The notes under the pieces were generated by a model. It saw only the letters and a list, made by a program, of their open reading frames with translations. It had not been told where the DNA came from and ran no database searches. This document shows positions 5,024 through 11,461 of a DNA stretch of 64,000 nt, piece after piece (position 1 is the stretch's first letter; each line of letters opens with the position of its first letter). A program made the translations under genes and the position numbers. This stretch comes from Acidaminococcus fermentans DSM 20731. Lineage in GTDB: Bacteria > Bacillota > Negativicutes > Acidaminococcales > Acidaminococcaceae. The DNA is taken from positions 682,001 through 746,000 of the forward strand of contig NC_013740.1 of NCBI RefSeq assembly GCF_000025305.1, given 5' to 3'.

Positions 5024-5197
5024 TATGAATAGAAACATAATTATGGAACTCTTTGCATTTATGAAAAAATATGATATTCTATAGAAAAACGAACTGAAGT
5101 TCATATAATGGTCTGAAGATAAATTTGACGGATGTAAAATTTGAGTGCAATTTAGATATTATTAATATTTCACTTTAATAATTTGGGGGTAAAATTC

Positions 5198-6310
5198 ATG
5201 ACTATAGCGTTGCGTCAAGGAAAAGCAAAGAGCATCTTAGAAAATTCGAGATCCTGTGTATTGACAGCTGTCGAAACATATAATCGTCCAAATAATCTTT
5301 ATAGAAGCGAAAATTATATTGTACTCATGATTATTGGATGGACTAAATTGTTGCATGCATATTTTCAAGCAAAAATTGGGAGTAAGTATTTTTATAAGGC
5401 TGAAAATGGAAGATATAAAAAAGTTAATGGAGAAAAAAGAGCTTGGGATTTGAAAGAGTGTATAAAACAGTTTAATAAAAGAGAACCAGAATTTAAATTA
5501 AGCGAAGCTGTCAGAAAAAATTTATATTTTTTCATTGGGATTAGAAATAAAATAGAACATTCATTTTGGTGTGGTTCTGATTTGGATATGTATGTATTCG
5601 GTGAATGTCAAGCACTTCTATTTAACTATGAAAAGCTGCTAAACGAACTTTTTGGTGATAGTTATGCTATTGAAGGGTGTTTGGCTTTTGCGTTGCAATT
5701 TTCACATAGAAGATCTGAAAATCAGAGTATATCACAAAAAATGTTATTGTCCAAAGAAATACGGGATTTAAAGAATTATATAGATAAATATAAAACTGAT
5801 TTAAATCAGGATGTTTATGACAGTCAGGAATATAGTATAAAACTTTTATTAATTCCTAAGGTGAGTAATACGAACAGGCACGATATGGCTTTAGAATTTG
5901 TAAATTGGAATGCAATAGATGAAAAGGATAGAGAAAGTTATCAAAAGGTCACCGCAATTATAAAGGATAAAATTGTGTATAAAAATGCGTCAAACGTTGA
6001 TTTATTAAAGCCTTCAGATGTGATAGAAAAAGTAAAACAGAGAACTGGTGAATCACTTAATATAGCTAATCACACTTGCTTATGGAAATCTTTTGGAGTT
6101 AGACCGGAAACAAATTCTCAGGATAAATTTGATACTATTGATAAATATTGTTTGTATGATGAACCACACAATGATTATTTATATACAGGTGAGTGGGTTA
6201 ATTTTATTGTGAATCTTATAGAGAAATATAAATTTAATAAAGATAATATAAAAGAACGCTGCGAGACCAAACTTGACTTGAAGGAATATGAATATAATGG
6301 AGGTTGCTAG
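5198..6310 (+). CDS. DUF3644-like protein with HEPN-type RNKIEH motif
   Basis: 370 aa, starting at ATG 5198 behind a G-rich Shine-Dalgarno sequence; an upstream TTG at 5183 is less likely. Residues ~15-160 match the DUF3644 pattern as I know it (ETYNRP..YRSENYIVLMIIGWTKLLHAYF, then KYFYK...NGRYKKVNGEKRAWDL). A canonical HEPN-ribonuclease motif Rx4H lies at residues 116-121 (RNKIEH), preceded by a hydrophobic helix, so an RNase toxin role is plausible; this is inference. The remaining ~200 residues are charged and unassigned. The gene is AT-rich and ends one base before the ATG of an OLD-like ATPase, so the two form a tight operon. Confidence 0.7.
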   Translation: MTIALRQGKAKSILENSRSCVLTAVETYNRPNNLYRSENYIVLMIIGWTKLLHAYFQAKIGSKYFYKAENGRYKKVNGEKRAWDLKECIKQFNKREPEFKLSEAVRKNLYFFIGIRNKIEHSFWCGSDLDMYVFGECQALLFNYEKLLNELFGDSYAIEGCLAFALQFSHRRSENQSISQKMLLSKEIRDLKNYIDKYKTDLNQDVYDSQEYSIKLLLIPKVSNTNRHDMALEFVNWNAIDEKDRESYQKVTAIIKDKIVYKNASNVDLLKPSDVIEKVKQRTGESLNIANHTCLWKSFGVRPETNSQDKFDTIDKYCLYDEPHNDYLYTGEWVNFIVNLIEKYKFNKDNIKERCETKLDLKEYEYNGGC

Positions 6311-8038
6311 ATGGAGTGGAAAATAAATCCAAATGATACAGAACCAGGAATATATGTATCGGAAATTGAATTTAATGATGGAAGTAAAGTAGAAGATATT
6401 GGCACGGATGACATTATTGTTTTTGTGGGGGCCAATAATGTAGGAAAAAGTCAGACATTAAAAGATATTTATTATGGTCTAGGGGATGAAAATGTTTCTA
6501 TTTTAAAGAATCTGCATGCTCTGGTTAAAGGGTGTCCACAGGATGTTATTAATCTTGTTAAAGACAAGGGAACATGTTTTCAACAGACAAATAATAACAT
6601 ATTCTATATACTCGGTAAGGGATTTTCTATAACAAATATACCTTATTATATGGAGGGTGGCTGTAGGCAGCATGAGGTATTAAGGGATTTGTTCGTTTGT
6701 AATATCGATACAGAAAAGCGCCTTTCAGTTTGCCGACCAGCAGATTTGATTAGACGTGATGCTATTAGAGCACATCCAATTCATTATCTTGCTTTTGAAC
6801 CCTCTATTAGAAAAAAATTCTCTGAATACTTTAAGAGGGCATTTCATAAATCTATCGAACCTAATGTGCTGTTTGGAAGCCAGATTCCTCTTATGGTGAC
6901 AGATGGCAAGATTCATTTGGCTGCCGAGGATTATAATGATGAAACGGAAAGAGTAGAAGCGTACGGAGTTGAACTGAATAAATATCCCCAAGCTCATGAA
7001 CAAGGTGATGGAATCAAAGGATTCATTGGTATTTTACTGTATCTGATTTTAGATTTTTATAGGGTCTATCTGATTGATGAACCTGAAGCTTTTCTTCATC
7101 CACCACAAGCCAGAATCATGGGACAGTTGATAGGAGAACTAAGTGCGGGGAAAAAACAGATTTTCATTTCCACACATAGTGAACAGCTGATCCAAGGGCT
7201 TTTAGACACAGCATCTGAAAGGGTTAAAATTGTAAGGATAACAAGAAATCAGAATATAAATCATGCATCAGTTTTAAATGCAGAAGATATAGAACGGGTA
7301 TGGCGTGATCCAATCTTGAGATATTCCAATATTCTGGAAGGACTCTTTTACAAAAACGTGATTCTTTGTGAAAGCGATTCTGATTGTCGGTTTTATTCTA
7401 TTATGAATGACCATTTGCAAAAAGAACAGGGGAGATATGCTGATACATTCTTTACTTATTCCGGTGGCAAACAGAGGATCCCTGTGATTTTAAATGCGTT
7501 ATCATCTTTAGGCGTAGAGACAAAGGTTATTACGGATTTTGATGTGCTTAATAATAAAATTATATTTGAAAAAATATGTAAGGCTTGTCATATTGATTGG
7601 GATTCGATTCAAAAGGATTACCAAGTCTTTTATGATGCCGTTAACAGAAAGTCTAAGTTAAGCATGAAACCGAAAAAAGAAATTCTTACCGAAATTGAAC
7701 AGATAACAAAAAAGGGGGAAGGAAACGATTACTATACGGAAAATGATGTACGGAAGATTAAAGAAATGTTAAAGGGGAAATCTTATTGGAGTATATTAAA
7801 AGAGTCTGGTGAAAATGCGATTCCTGCGGGTGAGCCGAGTCAAGCTTTTAACAAGATTAATCAAGTCGCCAGAGAACATAATTTATTTATCGTACCGGTA
7901 GGTGAACTGGAATGCTTTGTTAAAGAAATCAGTTCGCATGGGCCGAATTGGGTGAATGATGTTTTGGAGAAATATCGCAACTTAAATGATTCTGTTTATG
8001 ATAAGGTAAGGGCATTCTTAGGTCTGTTGAATTTATAA
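6311..8038 (+). CDS. OLD-like AAA ATPase with C-terminal TOPRIM nuclease domain
   Basis: This 575-aa protein has ABC/SMC-type ATPase halves in residues ~1-330: Walker A GANNVGKSQ (Lys46), Walker B VYLIDEPEAFLHPP (Asp256, Glu257) and a switch histidine in ISTHSEQL. A TOPRIM domain follows: Glu354 with SDSD in VILCESDSD, then DxD (Asp409, Asp411) in VITDFD. This is the architecture of OLD-family nucleases and of GajA (Gabija), but no UvrD-type GajB partner is present; the partner is the DUF3644-like protein. The ATG directly follows the stop of that gene, with GGAGG inside its last codons. Likely role: nucleic-acid-sensing ATPase/nuclease in phage defence (inference). Confidence 0.8.
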   Translation: MEWKINPNDTEPGIYVSEIEFNDGSKVEDIGTDDIIVFVGANNVGKSQTLKDIYYGLGDENVSILKNLHALVKGCPQDVINLVKDKGTCFQQTNNNIFYILGKGFSITNIPYYMEGGCRQHEVLRDLFVCNIDTEKRLSVCRPADLIRRDAIRAHPIHYLAFEPSIRKKFSEYFKRAFHKSIEPNVLFGSQIPLMVTDGKIHLAAEDYNDETERVEAYGVELNKYPQAHEQGDGIKGFIGILLYLILDFYRVYLIDEPEAFLHPPQARIMGQLIGELSAGKKQIFISTHSEQLIQGLLDTASERVKIVRITRNQNINHASVLNAEDIERVWRDPILRYSNILEGLFYKNVILCESDSDCRFYSIMNDHLQKEQGRYADTFFTYSGGKQRIPVILNALSSLGVETKVITDFDVLNNKIIFEKICKACHIDWDSIQKDYQVFYDAVNRKSKLSMKPKKEILTEIEQITKKGEGNDYYTENDVRKIKEMLKGKSYWSILKESGENAIPAGEPSQAFNKINQVAREHNLFIVPVGELECFVKEISSHGPNWVNDVLEKYRNLNDSVYDKVRAFLGLLNL

Positions 8039-8054: not shown

Positions 8055-8105
8055 ATGTGGAAAGAGTATTTGCTGATTATTGGGCTTTTTTCTTTTATTA
8101 TGTAA
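8055..8105 (+). pseudogene. start of a third operon gene, cut off by an IS66 end
   Basis: ATG 8055 lies 16 bp after the OLD-like gene, behind GAGGGA. It encodes MWKEYLLIIGLFSFIM and then stops at a TAA that overlaps the first bases of the IS66 terminus (GTAAGCG from 8102). Sixteen residues with a hydrophobic core look like the N-terminus of a membrane protein, so the original gene was probably truncated by the insertion. No downstream part is seen in the window. Confidence 0.45.
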
Positions 8106-8261
8106 GCGCTTAAAAATTCGGTGTATGGAATTACCACCTTCAGTTTGAGATAATACGGATGTTCAAAATATCGCACGAAAAAAAACGAATTTCTCTACGG
8201 TGTGCAACGTGTCGTTTTTTTCGAGCCATTCGTGTCACTCATTTCTGGAGATGGTTTTGTT
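8102..8261 (+). mobile_element. IS66-family left end, copy 1
   Basis: It begins GTAAGCGCTTAAAAATTCGG, and GTAAGCG is the usual IS66-family tip. About 140 bp are repeated with few differences at 10170-10310. A short hairpin sits around CGCACGAAAAAAAACG. This copy leads into a tnpA-like frame; tnpB and tnpC are absent. Confidence 0.65.
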
Positions 8262-8573
8262 TTGGGTGAAATCCAACGCATAAAACATCAGAAGGCTCTG
8301 GAATACTGGAGCCAGATTTTAAAGGAGCAACAGGAAAGCGGTCTTTGCATCAAGGCGTTCTGTCGGTCACGTCAGATGAGCCATCATGCCATGTATTACT
8401 GGATCAAGGGACTGAGAGAGGAAGCGCTGTTGGTCAATCCTCAGGCACCCGCCTGTACTACTCAATTTGCGCCCGTCTCTATGGCTCAGGAGCAACAGCA
8501 TTCCTGCGGGAAGATGGTCGTCTACGTGGGTTCTGCTTCTCTTGAAATCCCTGAGGTGTTAAGGTCGGATTAA
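8262..8573 (+). pseudogene. tnpA: IS66-family accessory protein TnpA, truncated element
   Basis: TTG 8262 (GGAG 11 nt upstream) opens a ~103-codon frame with the TnpA helix-turn-helix (ALEYWSQILKEQQESGL..AFCRSRQMSHHAMYYWIKGLR) and the C-terminal LEIPE motif. The last residues (VLRSD) come from the adjoining 24-bp repeat unit, so the gene lost its tail. The required tnpB and the large DDE transposase tnpC are gone, so the element is dead. Confidence 0.75.
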
Positions 8574-8591: not shown

Positions 8592-8639
8592 TTCTTGACA
8601 TGATTTTCAGCATGTCAAGAAGGATAATTATGGTATAAT
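8592..8639 (+). promoter_or_regulatory. promoter with 11-bp palindromic operator for the DUF6978/DUF1828-like pair
   Basis: TTCTTGACATG (8592-8602) and CATGTCAAGAA (8611-8621) form a perfect inverted repeat with an 8-nt centre. An extended -10 TGGTATAAT ends at 8639. The right arm covers the expected -35 position, so a protein bound to the palindrome would block transcription. This is the layout of autoregulated toxin-antitoxin-like operons (inference). Confidence 0.55.
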
Positions 8640-8705
8640 GACGGTAAATCACATAATCCTCAATTGAATGTTGAACGGCTTGAACAGTAGATAAGGATGA
8701 TTCTC

Positions 8706-9221
8706 ATGAGTACATTAACAAATGAAGAAGCTGAAAAATTATTAATGCTTCCGAAAAAAATTATTGTCGATGATGAACCACAGAATCAGTATATGCTCAA
8801 AAGTGGCAGTCGCCTTTCAGAAAGATTTTTTCTTCGTTCTGTAGATGGATATCATTTGTTTTTGTTGGAGATTTTTCAAGGGAAAAGACGTTTGAAAATA
8901 ACGCTTCATTTTCAGGAGAACACACAACCTGTTGGCCTTTTACGGGTGGATTATCAGGGAACGCATCAAAATCCTGTTGAATGCAATGAATTTGTCCCGA
9001 ATTTTGCAAAGCCATATGCAAAACAGGATATTAAGGAAAACCATATCCATTTTCATGTACAGGGATATAAACCATTGGCGTGGGCCATTCCGTTACGTAT
9101 CAGCAAATTTCCCGTAAAAGAAATTATGGATATGGATTCCTTTATTAGTGCGTTAGAAGCATTTCAGCGAGTGATCCATTTGGATACAAAATTTCTTTAT
9201 GAGGGGAGGTTGTTTCTATGA
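8706..9221 (+). CDS. DUF6978-like hypothetical protein, first gene of a two-gene module
   Basis: 171 aa; ATG 8706 has AAGGAT 7-8 nt upstream and is preferred over the in-frame ATG at 8697. It is soluble, with no signal or membrane segment. Visible features are a charged N-terminus (LTNEEAEKLLMLPK), a beta-rich middle (RFFLRSVDGYHLFLLEIFQG, KITLHFQ) and a histidine cluster NHIHFHVQGY. It resembles the DUF6978 proteins that commonly precede DUF1828 genes in Firmicutes; I recall this pairing but not a proven function. The stop overlaps the next start (ATGA). A role as antitoxin or partner is a guess. Confidence 0.6.
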   Translation: MSTLTNEEAEKLLMLPKKIIVDDEPQNQYMLKSGSRLSERFFLRSVDGYHLFLLEIFQGKRRLKITLHFQENTQPVGLLRVDYQGTHQNPVECNEFVPNFAKPYAKQDIKENHIHFHVQGYKPLAWAIPLRISKFPVKEIMDMDSFISALEAFQRVIHLDTKFLYEGRLFL

Positions 9222-10006
9222 ACTGGATTGATAAAGCTCTTCAAAATTATTTCGAGTTTTTAAAGGAACATATGAAAGCCACCCCGGTGGATGATCAGTG
9301 GTATTCCATTAGTACGCCTTTTTTGAATATGTTCAATGATTACATTGAAATCTATTGCTGCAATAAAGACGGAAAGATTTATTTGTCCGATGATGGAGAA
9401 ACCTTGCGGAATTTGAGCCTGGCAGGGGTTAATTTGTCCCGCTCTGAGACCAAACAAAAGCTCATGAATCAAATCATGATCAATTATGGAATCAGAGAAA
9501 AGAATCAGGAGCTAATCCTGGAAACGGATATGAAAAATTTTGCGCAGGCAAAACATAATTTTTTGAGTGCAATTTTGGAGATATCGGATTTTTATGTGCT
9601 GTCCAAACCCAATACAATTTCCATGTTCAAAGAAGATGTACAAAATTATTTAGAAGAGCAGGAAATTATTTATACGCCCGGTTTCATTGCAAAAGGAAAT
9701 ACGGGATTGGAATTTACGTTCTCTTTCCAGATTGCTGGAAGGAAACGGGAAATCCTCATTAATACATTCAATGTGATCAACAAGAGCAATTTAACATCGT
9801 TCTTGTTCGACTGGGGCGACATCAAAGAGGGAAGAGAGAGGGTTTCTCAAAAAAGTGTCAGCGGACTGGCAATCATCAACGACCAGAAAAAGCCGATTGA
9901 TTCAAAGTATTTGGATGCCATTCGCAATAAGGGCGCTGATTATATCTTGTACTCAGAGAGAAATAAGAAAGAGAATATAGAAAAACTGAACGCAAATGCT
10001 GCATAA
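9218..10006 (+). CDS. DUF1828 domain protein (DUF1828/DUF1829-like)
   Basis: 262 aa, translationally coupled to the preceding gene by an ATGA overlap with GGGGAGG upstream. Residues ~25-120 match the DUF1828 pattern: STPFLNMFNDYIEIYC..DGKIYLSDDGETLRNLSLAGVNL. The C-terminal ~130 residues (TGLEFTFSFQIAGRKREILINTF..ADYILYSE) fit the companion DUF1829 region. It is soluble, with no recognisable catalytic motif. The DDGET turn and the nuclease-like order of strands in the C-terminal half are suggestive but unproven. Its AT-rich composition and position between two IS66 ends mark it as acquired. Confidence 0.65.
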   Translation: MNWIDKALQNYFEFLKEHMKATPVDDQWYSISTPFLNMFNDYIEIYCCNKDGKIYLSDDGETLRNLSLAGVNLSRSETKQKLMNQIMINYGIREKNQELILETDMKNFAQAKHNFLSAILEISDFYVLSKPNTISMFKEDVQNYLEEQEIIYTPGFIAKGNTGLEFTFSFQIAGRKREILINTFNVINKSNLTSFLFDWGDIKEGRERVSQKSVSGLAIINDQKKPIDSKYLDAIRNKGADYILYSERNKKENIEKLNANAA

Positions 10007-10029
10007 AGCATTGAGCCGCATAGTGGGAT

Positions 10030-10162
10030 GACAAGAAGTCAGAAACGGCCCTGACGGGCCTTGAGACGTCAGATGTCAGCTTAGATGTAGGACCGAACTT
10101 CTAGTCGCGGATCAAGCTGACGTCTGACTTCTGAAAGGCCCGCAAGGGTCGGTCTGACGTCT
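10030..10162. repeat. nested inverted repeats after the DUF1828 gene
   Basis: GTCAGATGTCAGCTT (10068-10082) pairs with AAGCTGACGTCTGAC (10114-10128) with one mismatch. Outer arms built from AGAAGTCAGAA, GACGTCAG, CTGACTTCTG and CTGACGTCT can pair in more than one way. GGCCCTGACGGGCC and GGCCCGCAAGGGTC form small hairpins. The block could be a terminator complex or a MITE/REP-like element. No coding sequence is seen. Confidence 0.45.
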
Positions 10163-10169
10163 TTTGTTA

Positions 10170-10310
10170 GTAAGCGCTTAAAAATCCGGTGTATGGAATC
10201 ACCACCTTCAGTTTGAGATAATATGGATGTTAAAAATATCGCACGAAAAAACGAATTTCTCTACGGTGTGCAACGTGTCGTTTTTTCGAGTCATTCGTGT
10301 TACTCTTTGT
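10170..10310 (+). mobile_element. IS66-family left end, copy 2 (solo)
   Basis: It is nearly the same ~140 bp as 8102-8243, starting GTAAGCGCTTAAAAATCCGG, but passes directly into 24-bp repeats with no tnpA. The two ends are in the same orientation and bracket the DUF6978/DUF1828-like pair. Confidence 0.6.
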
Positions 10311-10313
10311 TAG

Positions 10314-10409
10314 AGTCGGGTTAAAATAGCCAATTACAGTCGGGCTAAAAACGCCAATGTCAGTCTGGTTAAAATCGCCAATCCTGGTCGGATTAAAAAA
10401 GCCATTGCC
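10314..10409. repeat. four tandem 24-bp repeats
   Basis: The units start at 10314, 10338, 10362 and 10386, with consensus AGTCGGGTTAAAATCGCCAA plus four variable bases. Subterminal arrays of this spacing are typical of IS21-family right ends, where they bind the transposase; that origin is inferred. The rest of 10410-10525 holds only the promoter region of the next gene. Confidence 0.6.
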
Positions 10410-10525: not shown

Positions 10526-11323
10526 GTGTTTATTGCAGACAGCAAGATAAAAGAACTCAATAGCTCTCTGATTACTCCTTTTAAAGAAGATGCTATAGGA
10601 CCGGTCTCTTATGATTTAACGGCCCGGCAGTTTCATTTGCTGAAAAATGGAGAAGCTGAAAGTAAAGTTAAAATAGAACTTCTTCCTTTGGAATCGGTTT
10701 TTGTTTCGACAGAAGAAACAATCAATTTGCCGGCTAATTTGTCGGCTGTAGTTAATATAAGGAATTCCAAGTTACGCCAGGGACTAAACTTGGAGAGCCC
10801 GATTTATTATCCGGGGCATCATACACGAGTCTTTTTCCGCTTGACCAATTTTTCTAATGAAAAAATCATTTTATCGGCAGGCGAGAAATATGCAGCTGCT
10901 TATTTTTCTCCTGTGGATGGAGCAGTTGATCAGCCCTATCAAGGTACCTTTCAAGATGAATTTGATTTTACAGGTATGGCCGGCTATACGAATCAATATA
11001 AAAAAGCAATGCATCAAGTACAGGATAAATTGAAAGACCTGAAAGATCTGGAAAAGGGAATTTATGGAAACGTCATGGTTTTAATGACGATTTTCGTGGC
11101 TTTGTTCAGCTTGATTAATATTAATGTGAATTTGGTAAAAGAAGGTTCTGATGGAGCGTATCTGATTCGTCTGCTTGTTTTCAATCTGGGAACGGTTGGC
11201 AGTATTTTTGCATTGATTGGATGTGTGCAATCGATGGTAAAATCTGAAGGAATCAATAAATGCCTGGTTGGATTGAGTGTGTTATGCTTCCTTGCTGCCA
11301 TCTGTCTGGCTATAAAAGCATAA
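10526..11323 (+). CDS. dUTPase/dCTP-deaminase-fold protein with three C-terminal membrane helices
   Basis: 265 aa from GTG 10526, GGGAGG 8-9 nt upstream. Residues ~1-145 follow the dCTP deaminase/dUTPase fold: GPVSYDLTA, the trimer/phosphate motif NIRNSKLRQGLNL (77-89), a YPGHHTRVFFRLTN segment and QPYQG. In active enzymes the third motif reads roughly DPGWxG with a catalytic acid nearby; here it is YYPGHHT (94-100) with an Arg or Phe where Glu is expected. The domain is therefore probably a nucleotide-binding sensor rather than an enzyme. A coiled coil (~155-178) and helices at ~181-199, 212-233 and 245-263 follow. A membrane-effector defence protein is plausible but unproven. Repeat arrays flank it. 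Confidence 0.65.
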   Translation: MFIADSKIKELNSSLITPFKEDAIGPVSYDLTARQFHLLKNGEAESKVKIELLPLESVFVSTEETINLPANLSAVVNIRNSKLRQGLNLESPIYYPGHHTRVFFRLTNFSNEKIILSAGEKYAAAYFSPVDGAVDQPYQGTFQDEFDFTGMAGYTNQYKKAMHQVQDKLKDLKDLEKGIYGNVMVLMTIFVALFSLININVNLVKEGSDGAYLIRLLVFNLGTVGSIFALIGCVQSMVKSEGINKCLVGLSVLCFLAAICLAIKA

Positions 11324-11389: not shown

Positions 11390-11461
11390 AGGCGGGCTAA
11401 AAACGCCAATAGCAGTCGGGTTAAAATCGCCAATCCTGGTCGGATTAAAAAAGCCATTGCC
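11390..11461. repeat. three tandem 24-bp repeats
   Basis: The units start at 11390, 11414 and 11438 and are the same family as 10314-10409. The last two units and the following CCATTGCCG flank are almost identical between the two arrays, so they derive from one element end. Confidence 0.6.

Follow-up and report, generated by a model that had tools for sequence, protein, structure and literature searches.

The domain DUF1829 is one of five that DefensePredictor has newly implicated in phage defence (PMC13092281, of which part of the text was available). In the DS-6/HipAD system described there, a HipA-like kinase, on whose activity defence depends, lies next to a DUF3037-DUF1829 protein for which binding to both the kinase and DNA is predicted. 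For the HipA-DUF3037 pair of Retron-Sda1, tagged PDC-M66, the accessible part of the report states that removing the DUF3037 gene proved toxic and that defence was abolished when the HipA kinase was lost; its authors regard the pair as toxin and neutraliser (PMC12548924). We analysed a stretch of 64,000 nucleotides of Acidaminococcus fermentans DSM 20731 (contig NC_013740.1, positions 682,001 to 746,000; the whole stretch is called the window below), in which two adjacent genes encode a DUF6978 protein and a DUF1828-DUF1829 protein. This pair may be a mobile, prophage-associated toxin-antitoxin-type anti-phage module with DUF6978, by analogy with the systems above, as the toxin, a reading to which we assign a probability of about 0.55. 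The two genes and the predicted domains of the second product are as follows.

8706 to 9221, + strand: DUF6978 (PDC-M24A) gene, 171 aa, proposed toxin (effector); alternative start at 8697.
9218 to 10006, + strand: DUF1828+DUF1829 (PDC-M24B) gene, 262 aa, proposed antitoxin.
DUF1828-DUF1829 protein, predicted domains: chaperone-like N-terminal domain, residues ~3-133; C-terminal domain of PD-(D/E)XK fold, residues ~134-262.

The ATGA at 9218-9221 is shared by both genes, the overlap that a first-pass annotation of this DNA had reported. The first product matches Pfam PF22398 (E 2.2e-19) and the second PF08861 (2.4e-29) and PF08862 (3.9e-24), all three of which are domains of unknown function according to Pfam. 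Against the PADLOC models, DUF6978 matches PDLC04537 (PDC-M24A; 1.6e-56, residues 4-168 of 171) and the adjacent DUF1828-DUF1829 protein matches PDLC04539 (PDC-M24B; 1.4e-93, residues 1-257 of 262), so that the products of the two neighbouring genes match the models of the candidate over nearly their full length. Judged by these profile matches, the window pair is a copy of the PADLOC phage defence candidate PDC-M24 (M24A + M24B). PDC-M24 is a bioinformatic candidate; in the open-access literature searched there is no published mechanism to compare with, and neither PDC-M24 nor the three Pfam accessions are named there. The first-pass annotation knew of no function for these families. This holds for DUF6978; the pair, however, is already listed as PDC-M24, and DUF1829 was newly implicated in defence in 2026 (PMC13092281, available part).

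The window pair resembles DS-6/HipAD, as far as the available text describes it, in that the partner protein carries DUF1829 and the system is a two-gene phage defence. It differs in having DUF6978 in the position of the toxin and DUF1828 as the N-terminal domain of the partner. A Pfam scan covering the pair plus four adjoining open reading frames (ORFs) detected no HipA-like kinase. The same scan detected DUF1829 and no DUF3037 in the pair, and none of the 299 genomes sampled from the phylum contained DUF3037. Because of the analogy with HipAD and with the HipA-DUF3037 pair, we take DUF1828-DUF1829 as the putative antitoxin and DUF6978 as the putative toxin, an assignment that would agree with the orphan asymmetry and the residue conservation described below. 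DUF6978 would then be an enzyme, perhaps an RNase or one acting on nucleotides. DUF1828-DUF1829 would bind it via the secretion-chaperone-like N-terminal domain and keep it inactive, and the disarmed nuclease domain might serve dimerisation, nucleic-acid binding or sensing. Phage infection would break the complex and the freed toxin would stop growth and phage production, that is, abortive infection, by which a prophage carrying the pair might exclude its rivals.

The linkage of the two genes was determined from both sides. Among the 299 genomes of the phylum, DUF6978 was present in nine, each time with DUF1828 next door (9/9); in a class set of 380 genomes, which has genomes in common with the phylum set, the figures were 14 and 14/14. 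At viral loci found by DUF6978 alignment, several of them on identical or near-identical contigs, DUF1828 was adjacent in 19/19. From the DUF1828 side, a DUF6978-type neighbour was seen at 22 of 29 places, and two weak places (L202 and L203) gave no match with the profiles. We then counted 72 loci distinct by their DUF1828 end (identical C-terminal ends merged; L085-L171, the TumE set and neighbourhood stretches, set aside; gaps taken from the first in-frame start, by which overlaps may be overstated). DUF6978 preceded DUF1828 in 55 of them, the genes were convergent in four, DUF1828 stood alone in 13 and DUF6978 alone in none. At the convergent loci (L030, L041, L044 and L174; L176, which is convergent too, was merged and not counted separately) the 3′ ends overlap by 4 or 8 bp.

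Both genes were adjacent in 59 of the 72 loci, and the distance matrices of the two proteins correlate with r 0.85 over the 51 of these 59 pairs that are of normal length, a value reached in 0 of 2000 permutations. The correlation speaks for co-transmission rather than contact, and shared descent adds to the figure. The pair thus consists of two small, adjacent and co-inherited genes (59/72 loci, r 0.85), and the presumed toxin gene was never found without the presumed antitoxin gene (0/72), both as expected of toxin-antitoxin pairs. A survey of the genome-wide context of DUF1828, which the first-pass annotation had proposed as a check, gave strong pairing (59/72); the enrichment of defence genes nearby, considered below, was not clean. 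Of the loci with DUF1828 alone, L004 and L190 are clean cases, having intact DUF1828-DUF1829 genes, enough flank and no DUF6978. The DUF1828-DUF1829 gene of L073 is intact, with 263 bp of contig left upstream; that of L021 is intact and preceded by a broken remnant of DUF6978. The remaining ones are fragments, stand-alone N-terminal domains or genes broken or cut by the end of a contig. Loss of the putative toxin alone is what a toxin-antitoxin pair predicts.

Conserved pairing and co-divergence would fit any obligate complex as well. The pair could accordingly form a defence complex that needs both proteins and has no toxin-antitoxin relation: DUF1828-DUF1829 would recognise a nucleic acid or a phage protein, DUF6978 would be the enzyme, and neither would be toxic alone. 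DS-5 is reported to be such a two-protein defence, in which both proteins are needed together and neither is toxic by itself (PMC13092281, available part), and a nuclease-like fold lacking its (D/E)xK motif could be a nucleic-acid-binding sensor. We nevertheless consider this explanation somewhat unlikely, given that a few loci keep DUF1828 without DUF6978 and none shows the reverse, and that the related HipA-DUF3037 pair acts as toxin and antitoxin, going by the accessible part of PMC12548924.

The predicted structure of the DUF1828-DUF1829 protein has a mean pLDDT of 92.2 and a pTM of 0.54, and hence the domains are modelled with confidence and their arrangement is not. The C-terminal DUF1829 domain takes the PD-(D/E)XK fold in this model, with AF1548 (1y88) as the best match (Z 11.0, rmsd 3.2, 107 aligned, residues 136-252), followed by PspGI (Z 10.9), Cdn1 (10.7), BstEII (10.7) and Can2 (10.4). 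The best Foldseek rows were mostly PD-(D/E)XK nucleases too, no row falling below E 0.001. DUF1829 thus shares its predicted fold with nucleases such as AF1548, PspGI and Can2/Cdn1 and differs from them in that the (D/E)xK motif is missing in all 28 aligned DUF1829 sequences. There is no acid at this place in any of them (0/28) and Asn replaces the expected Lys in 28/28, with the motif columns assigned by strand order rather than by residue-level structure alignment. Of the 28 sequences, 21 retain the motif Asp; the window copy has Ser instead. The profile of the DUF1828-DUF1829 protein, when compared with the chains of the PDB, gave two chance-level rows and nothing more.

The fold of the C-terminal domain leads to a second alternative, in which DUF1828-DUF1829 is an effector nuclease whose active site is non-canonical, with DUF6978 as its regulator. 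Besides the fold itself, the DUF1829 alignment A7 (made without duplicate contigs and L062) shows N185 and R206 to be invariant and N221-D222 nearly so, and these residues might make up an alternative active site. Among nine sequences of a divergent sub-branch, inspected by eye, the motif Asp is present in 8/9 and Lys in 3/9. On the other hand, an acid before the Lys position was found in 0/9 of this sub-branch, (D/E)xK is absent throughout the 28 sequences with Ser for Asp in the window, and the catalytic-looking residues sit in DUF6978. We regard a nuclease effector as quite improbable and retain the reading of DUF1828-DUF1829 as the antitoxin of DUF6978.

The N-terminal DUF1828 domain (residues ~11-133) matched 8q8o (Z 9.1), 3cxj (8.7), Spa15 (8.2), InvB (8.1), ExsC (7.6) and CesT (7.5). 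These Z values are near the level common for the tool and the set is consistent; the predicted model suggests a moderate resemblance of DUF1828 to the class I chaperones of type III secretion (Spa15, InvB, ExsC, CesT). The domain differs from them by its fusion to a nuclease-like domain, and the likeness does not imply a function in secretion.

DUF6978 was modelled with a mean pLDDT of 89.6 and a pTM of 0.86, and the predicted model had no recognised fold relative (best Foldseek E 0.27, best VIA-align Z 3.9). Failed matches of a model name no relative and do not show that the fold is new. A search of the DUF6978 profile against PDB chains found nothing. In a set of 26 viral DUF6978 sequences (duplicate contigs and the partial rows L029, L031 and L060 left out), H87, N89, P90, H113, H115 and A127 are strictly kept, K17 is found in all 25 that have a residue there and R80 in 24/26. 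In a set of 13 sequences that includes chromosomal members, invariance is limited to K17, H113, H115 and F153. Members of the divergent sub-branch keep the K, R, H and H-x-H (by eye; 13 hand-picked sequences). This pattern of conservation suggests that DUF6978 is an enzyme. The putative toxins of TumE-TumA are likewise small and share an R-x-D ... H-x-H pattern with DUF6978 by eye. A relationship with TumE was not supported: there was no profile link, none of the 26 members had a Pfam TumE match, and hhalign against 49 TumE-like sequences, a set not checked against Pfam, gave 3.6% probability, with 1 of 10 shuffles scoring higher.

In four elements (Lactobacillus prophage Lj965, Staphylococcus phage 37, Streptococcus phage Javan249 and the satellite Javan357), the pair adjoins the integrase or lies close to it, on the side of the repressor. 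For phage UPMK_1, no integrase was annotated within the fetched flank of the pair. At least 8 of 27 other distinct viral pair loci had an integrase within the fetched flank when the integrases of the four elements named above were used as queries. The DUF1828-DUF1829 protein of the window matched in 16 of 50,697 phage records and 9 of 72,556 plasmid records, and the window DUF6978 had no plasmid match at 1e-5. Phage and plasmid records both match rarely, and replicon preference decides little. A copy of the pair in A. massiliensis (L002) is 91% identical in DNA over window 8624-10010, stands in another neighbourhood and adjoins an AbiJ-like gene. At a further locus (L069), the pair is flanked by two genes that by eye resemble those of type I HsdS and HsdR.

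Two kinds of loci depart from the pair. At L190, a DUF1828-DUF1829 gene without DUF6978 stands between AbiD and SIR2 (PDC-S25) genes; it may have switched partners or be an orphan antitoxin. At L045, L046, L047, L049 and L005, DUF1828 occurs as a stand-alone protein of 125-144 aa, with neither DUF1829 nor DUF6978. The first four are related viral contigs, 91-100% identical over the DUF1828 protein, and in three of these four the gene is located beside DNA methyltransferase-like genes (by eye). An extended form of our reading would make DUF1828/DUF1829 proteins a class of exchangeable antitoxin-chaperones, composed of a domain resembling secretion chaperones and a disarmed restriction-nuclease domain, that guard unrelated toxins (DUF6978, HipA-like kinases, perhaps AbiD at L190), with the stand-alone viral DUF1828 proteins as phage-made decoy antitoxins. 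We mention this form as a speculation and think it distinctly unlikely to hold.

Upstream of the pair, the window contains an inverted repeat and a promoter-like site.

8592 to 8621: 11-bp perfect inverted repeat, possible local operator; arms at 8592-8602 and 8611-8621.
8612 to 8639, + strand: promoter-like site ATGTCA-16-TATAAT, with TG before the -10 and 10 of 12 consensus positions.

The arms read TTCTTGACATG (8592-8602) and CATGTCAAGAA (8611-8621) and are separated by an 8-nt spacer. The -35-like hexamer ATGTCA (8612-8617) is located inside the right arm and TATAAT at 8634-8639 completes the best promoter match of the region, which confirms that a perfect 11-bp palindrome overlaps the -35-like hexamer. 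Promoter-like sites are near chance in this region (6 against 4.7 expected, sd 2.0). Perfect repeats with arms of at least 11 are expected 0.25 times per 64 kb of random sequence and arose in 1 of 3000 simulated 200-bp stretches (loops of 3-12; 12 first-order Markov simulations; stretches of local composition). The window in fact has 16 distinct places with such repeats, many of them ending in runs of T and terminator-like; repeats of this kind are therefore common in the window for functional reasons. The palindrome at 8592-8621 is absent from the list of terminator-like sites of the window and, even with up to 3 mismatches, has no second occurrence in the genome.

The first-pass annotation had described this palindrome as one in the style of autoregulation. 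The 91%-identical A. massiliensis copy does not have it, and DNA similarity begins at window 8624, just past the right arm. Among 35 pair loci picked by hand from the loci then known, inverted repeats at P<=0.05 were found upstream of five, compared with about 1.75 expected, a slight excess (~0.03, hand binomial). The five are unrelated sequences and some may be terminators of the upstream genes. Because of the absence from the A. massiliensis copy and the only slight excess upstream of relatives, autoregulation is unsupported as a trait of the family, and likewise the palindrome as a conserved family operator. The autoregulatory claim is weak. The palindrome could act as an operator locally or be left over from the insertion of an insertion sequence (IS), and transcriptional feedback through the palindrome would be possible in the window copy only. 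An ordinary prophage or genomic-island pair, autoregulated by the palindrome and with a role other than defence such as lysogeny control or stabilisation of the element, could be pictured from the vicinity of integrase and repressor genes in temperate phages, from a palindrome that is unlikely in random sequence and from the slight excess of repeats (5/35). As the pair is also found in defence neighbourhoods of chromosomes and flanked by IS remnants, and the palindrome is not conserved, we hold such a role to be highly doubtful.

The suspicion of the first-pass annotation that the two genes form a toxin-antitoxin or defence module is favoured by the PDC-M24A and PDC-M24B matches, by the linkage, by the phage and defence settings and by the DUF1829 link to DS-6/HipAD; the palindrome argument behind it is weak. 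Several observations weigh against a toxin-antitoxin module in which DUF6978 would be the toxin. Neither fold nor sequence links DUF6978 to a known toxin. H87 and R80 vary among its chromosomal members, L008 for example, and 9 of the 26 rows used to determine conservation were found via their own H-x-N-P-D-G or H-x-H patterns. The orphan asymmetry depends on few clean cases (L004, L190), and four distinct convergent loci are unusual for a toxin-antitoxin operon. The enrichment of defence genes near the pair was not clean when 97 neighbour proteins of 12 loci were compared with 116 of 13 control stretches: type I restriction-modification, Wadjet JetA and methyltransferases occurred near the pair (first 25 of 91 matched families), and type III restriction-modification, Tmn and PDC-S42 in the controls (first 25 of 32 matched families). 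The accessible part of PMC12548924 does not state whether the DUF3037 protein of Retron-Sda1 carries DUF1829. Finally, there is the absence of the palindrome from the A. massiliensis copy. Beyond the listing as PDC-M24, the present analysis contributes the linkage with its count of orphans, the co-divergence of the two proteins, the predicted disarmed nuclease and chaperone-like domains and the connection to HipAD.

In the window, the pair is framed by IS66 ends and lies in an AT-rich block, in agreement with the first-pass annotation. The GC content is 0.30-0.42 over ~5 to 11.5 kb, compared with 0.55-0.64 over 11.5 to 15 kb, and the frame consists of direct repeats and a transposase-like ORF.

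8102 to 8257, + strand: IS66-type end, left copy of the direct repeat (repeat search).
10170 to 10322, + strand: IS66-type end, right copy of the direct repeat (repeat search).
8202 to 8573, + strand: IS66 TnpA-like ORF, remnant (NCBIfam NF047593 4e-14; HTH_Tnp_1 below cut-off).

At 5183-8038, a DUF3644 gene (PADLOC PDC-S19, 2.9e-138) and an OLD-like ATPase-TOPRIM gene (PADLOC Old, 1.8e-25) are probably a separate defence system. The gene at 10526-11323 encodes a dCTP-deaminase-like domain (Pfam DCD 6.9e-10) with a hydrophobic C-terminal part (by eye), had no PADLOC match and forms its own cassette between IS repeats. A stretch of ~140 nt at 10025-10165 resembles several further places of A. 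massiliensis L002 on both strands, as a dispersed element does.

Repeats with a period of 24 at 8564, 10315-10405 and 11391-11457 are part of an element other than IS66; the window has 8 of them compared with 0.02 expected. They border the pair in the window and are located upstream of it in A. massiliensis. At 869-872 kb (L218) they border an AbiLi-like ATPase gene and a second small gene. They also border a Cas9-Cas1-Cas2 locus with an Abi_2-like gene after it in a further genome (L231 in G007, by eye) and an IstA-like transposase ORF of IS21 type in another (L232 in G005, by eye). Because they border this IstA-like ORF, they are most simply explained as ends of an IS21-type element, and we rejected them as a cassette system of their own. 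They are probably IS21-type ends, which in this genus are often found next to defence genes.

PDC-M24 is found in chromosomes of the phylum to which A. fermentans belongs, in temperate phages and in one phage satellite. If the reading of the pair as a toxin-antitoxin-type anti-phage module is true, this candidate, so far listed and unexplained, would gain a mechanism that can be tested, and its likely toxin and the probable active-site residues would be named. PDC-M24 would also be tied to HipAD by a nuclease-like domain without its motif, which suggests that one antitoxin scaffold may serve several toxins.

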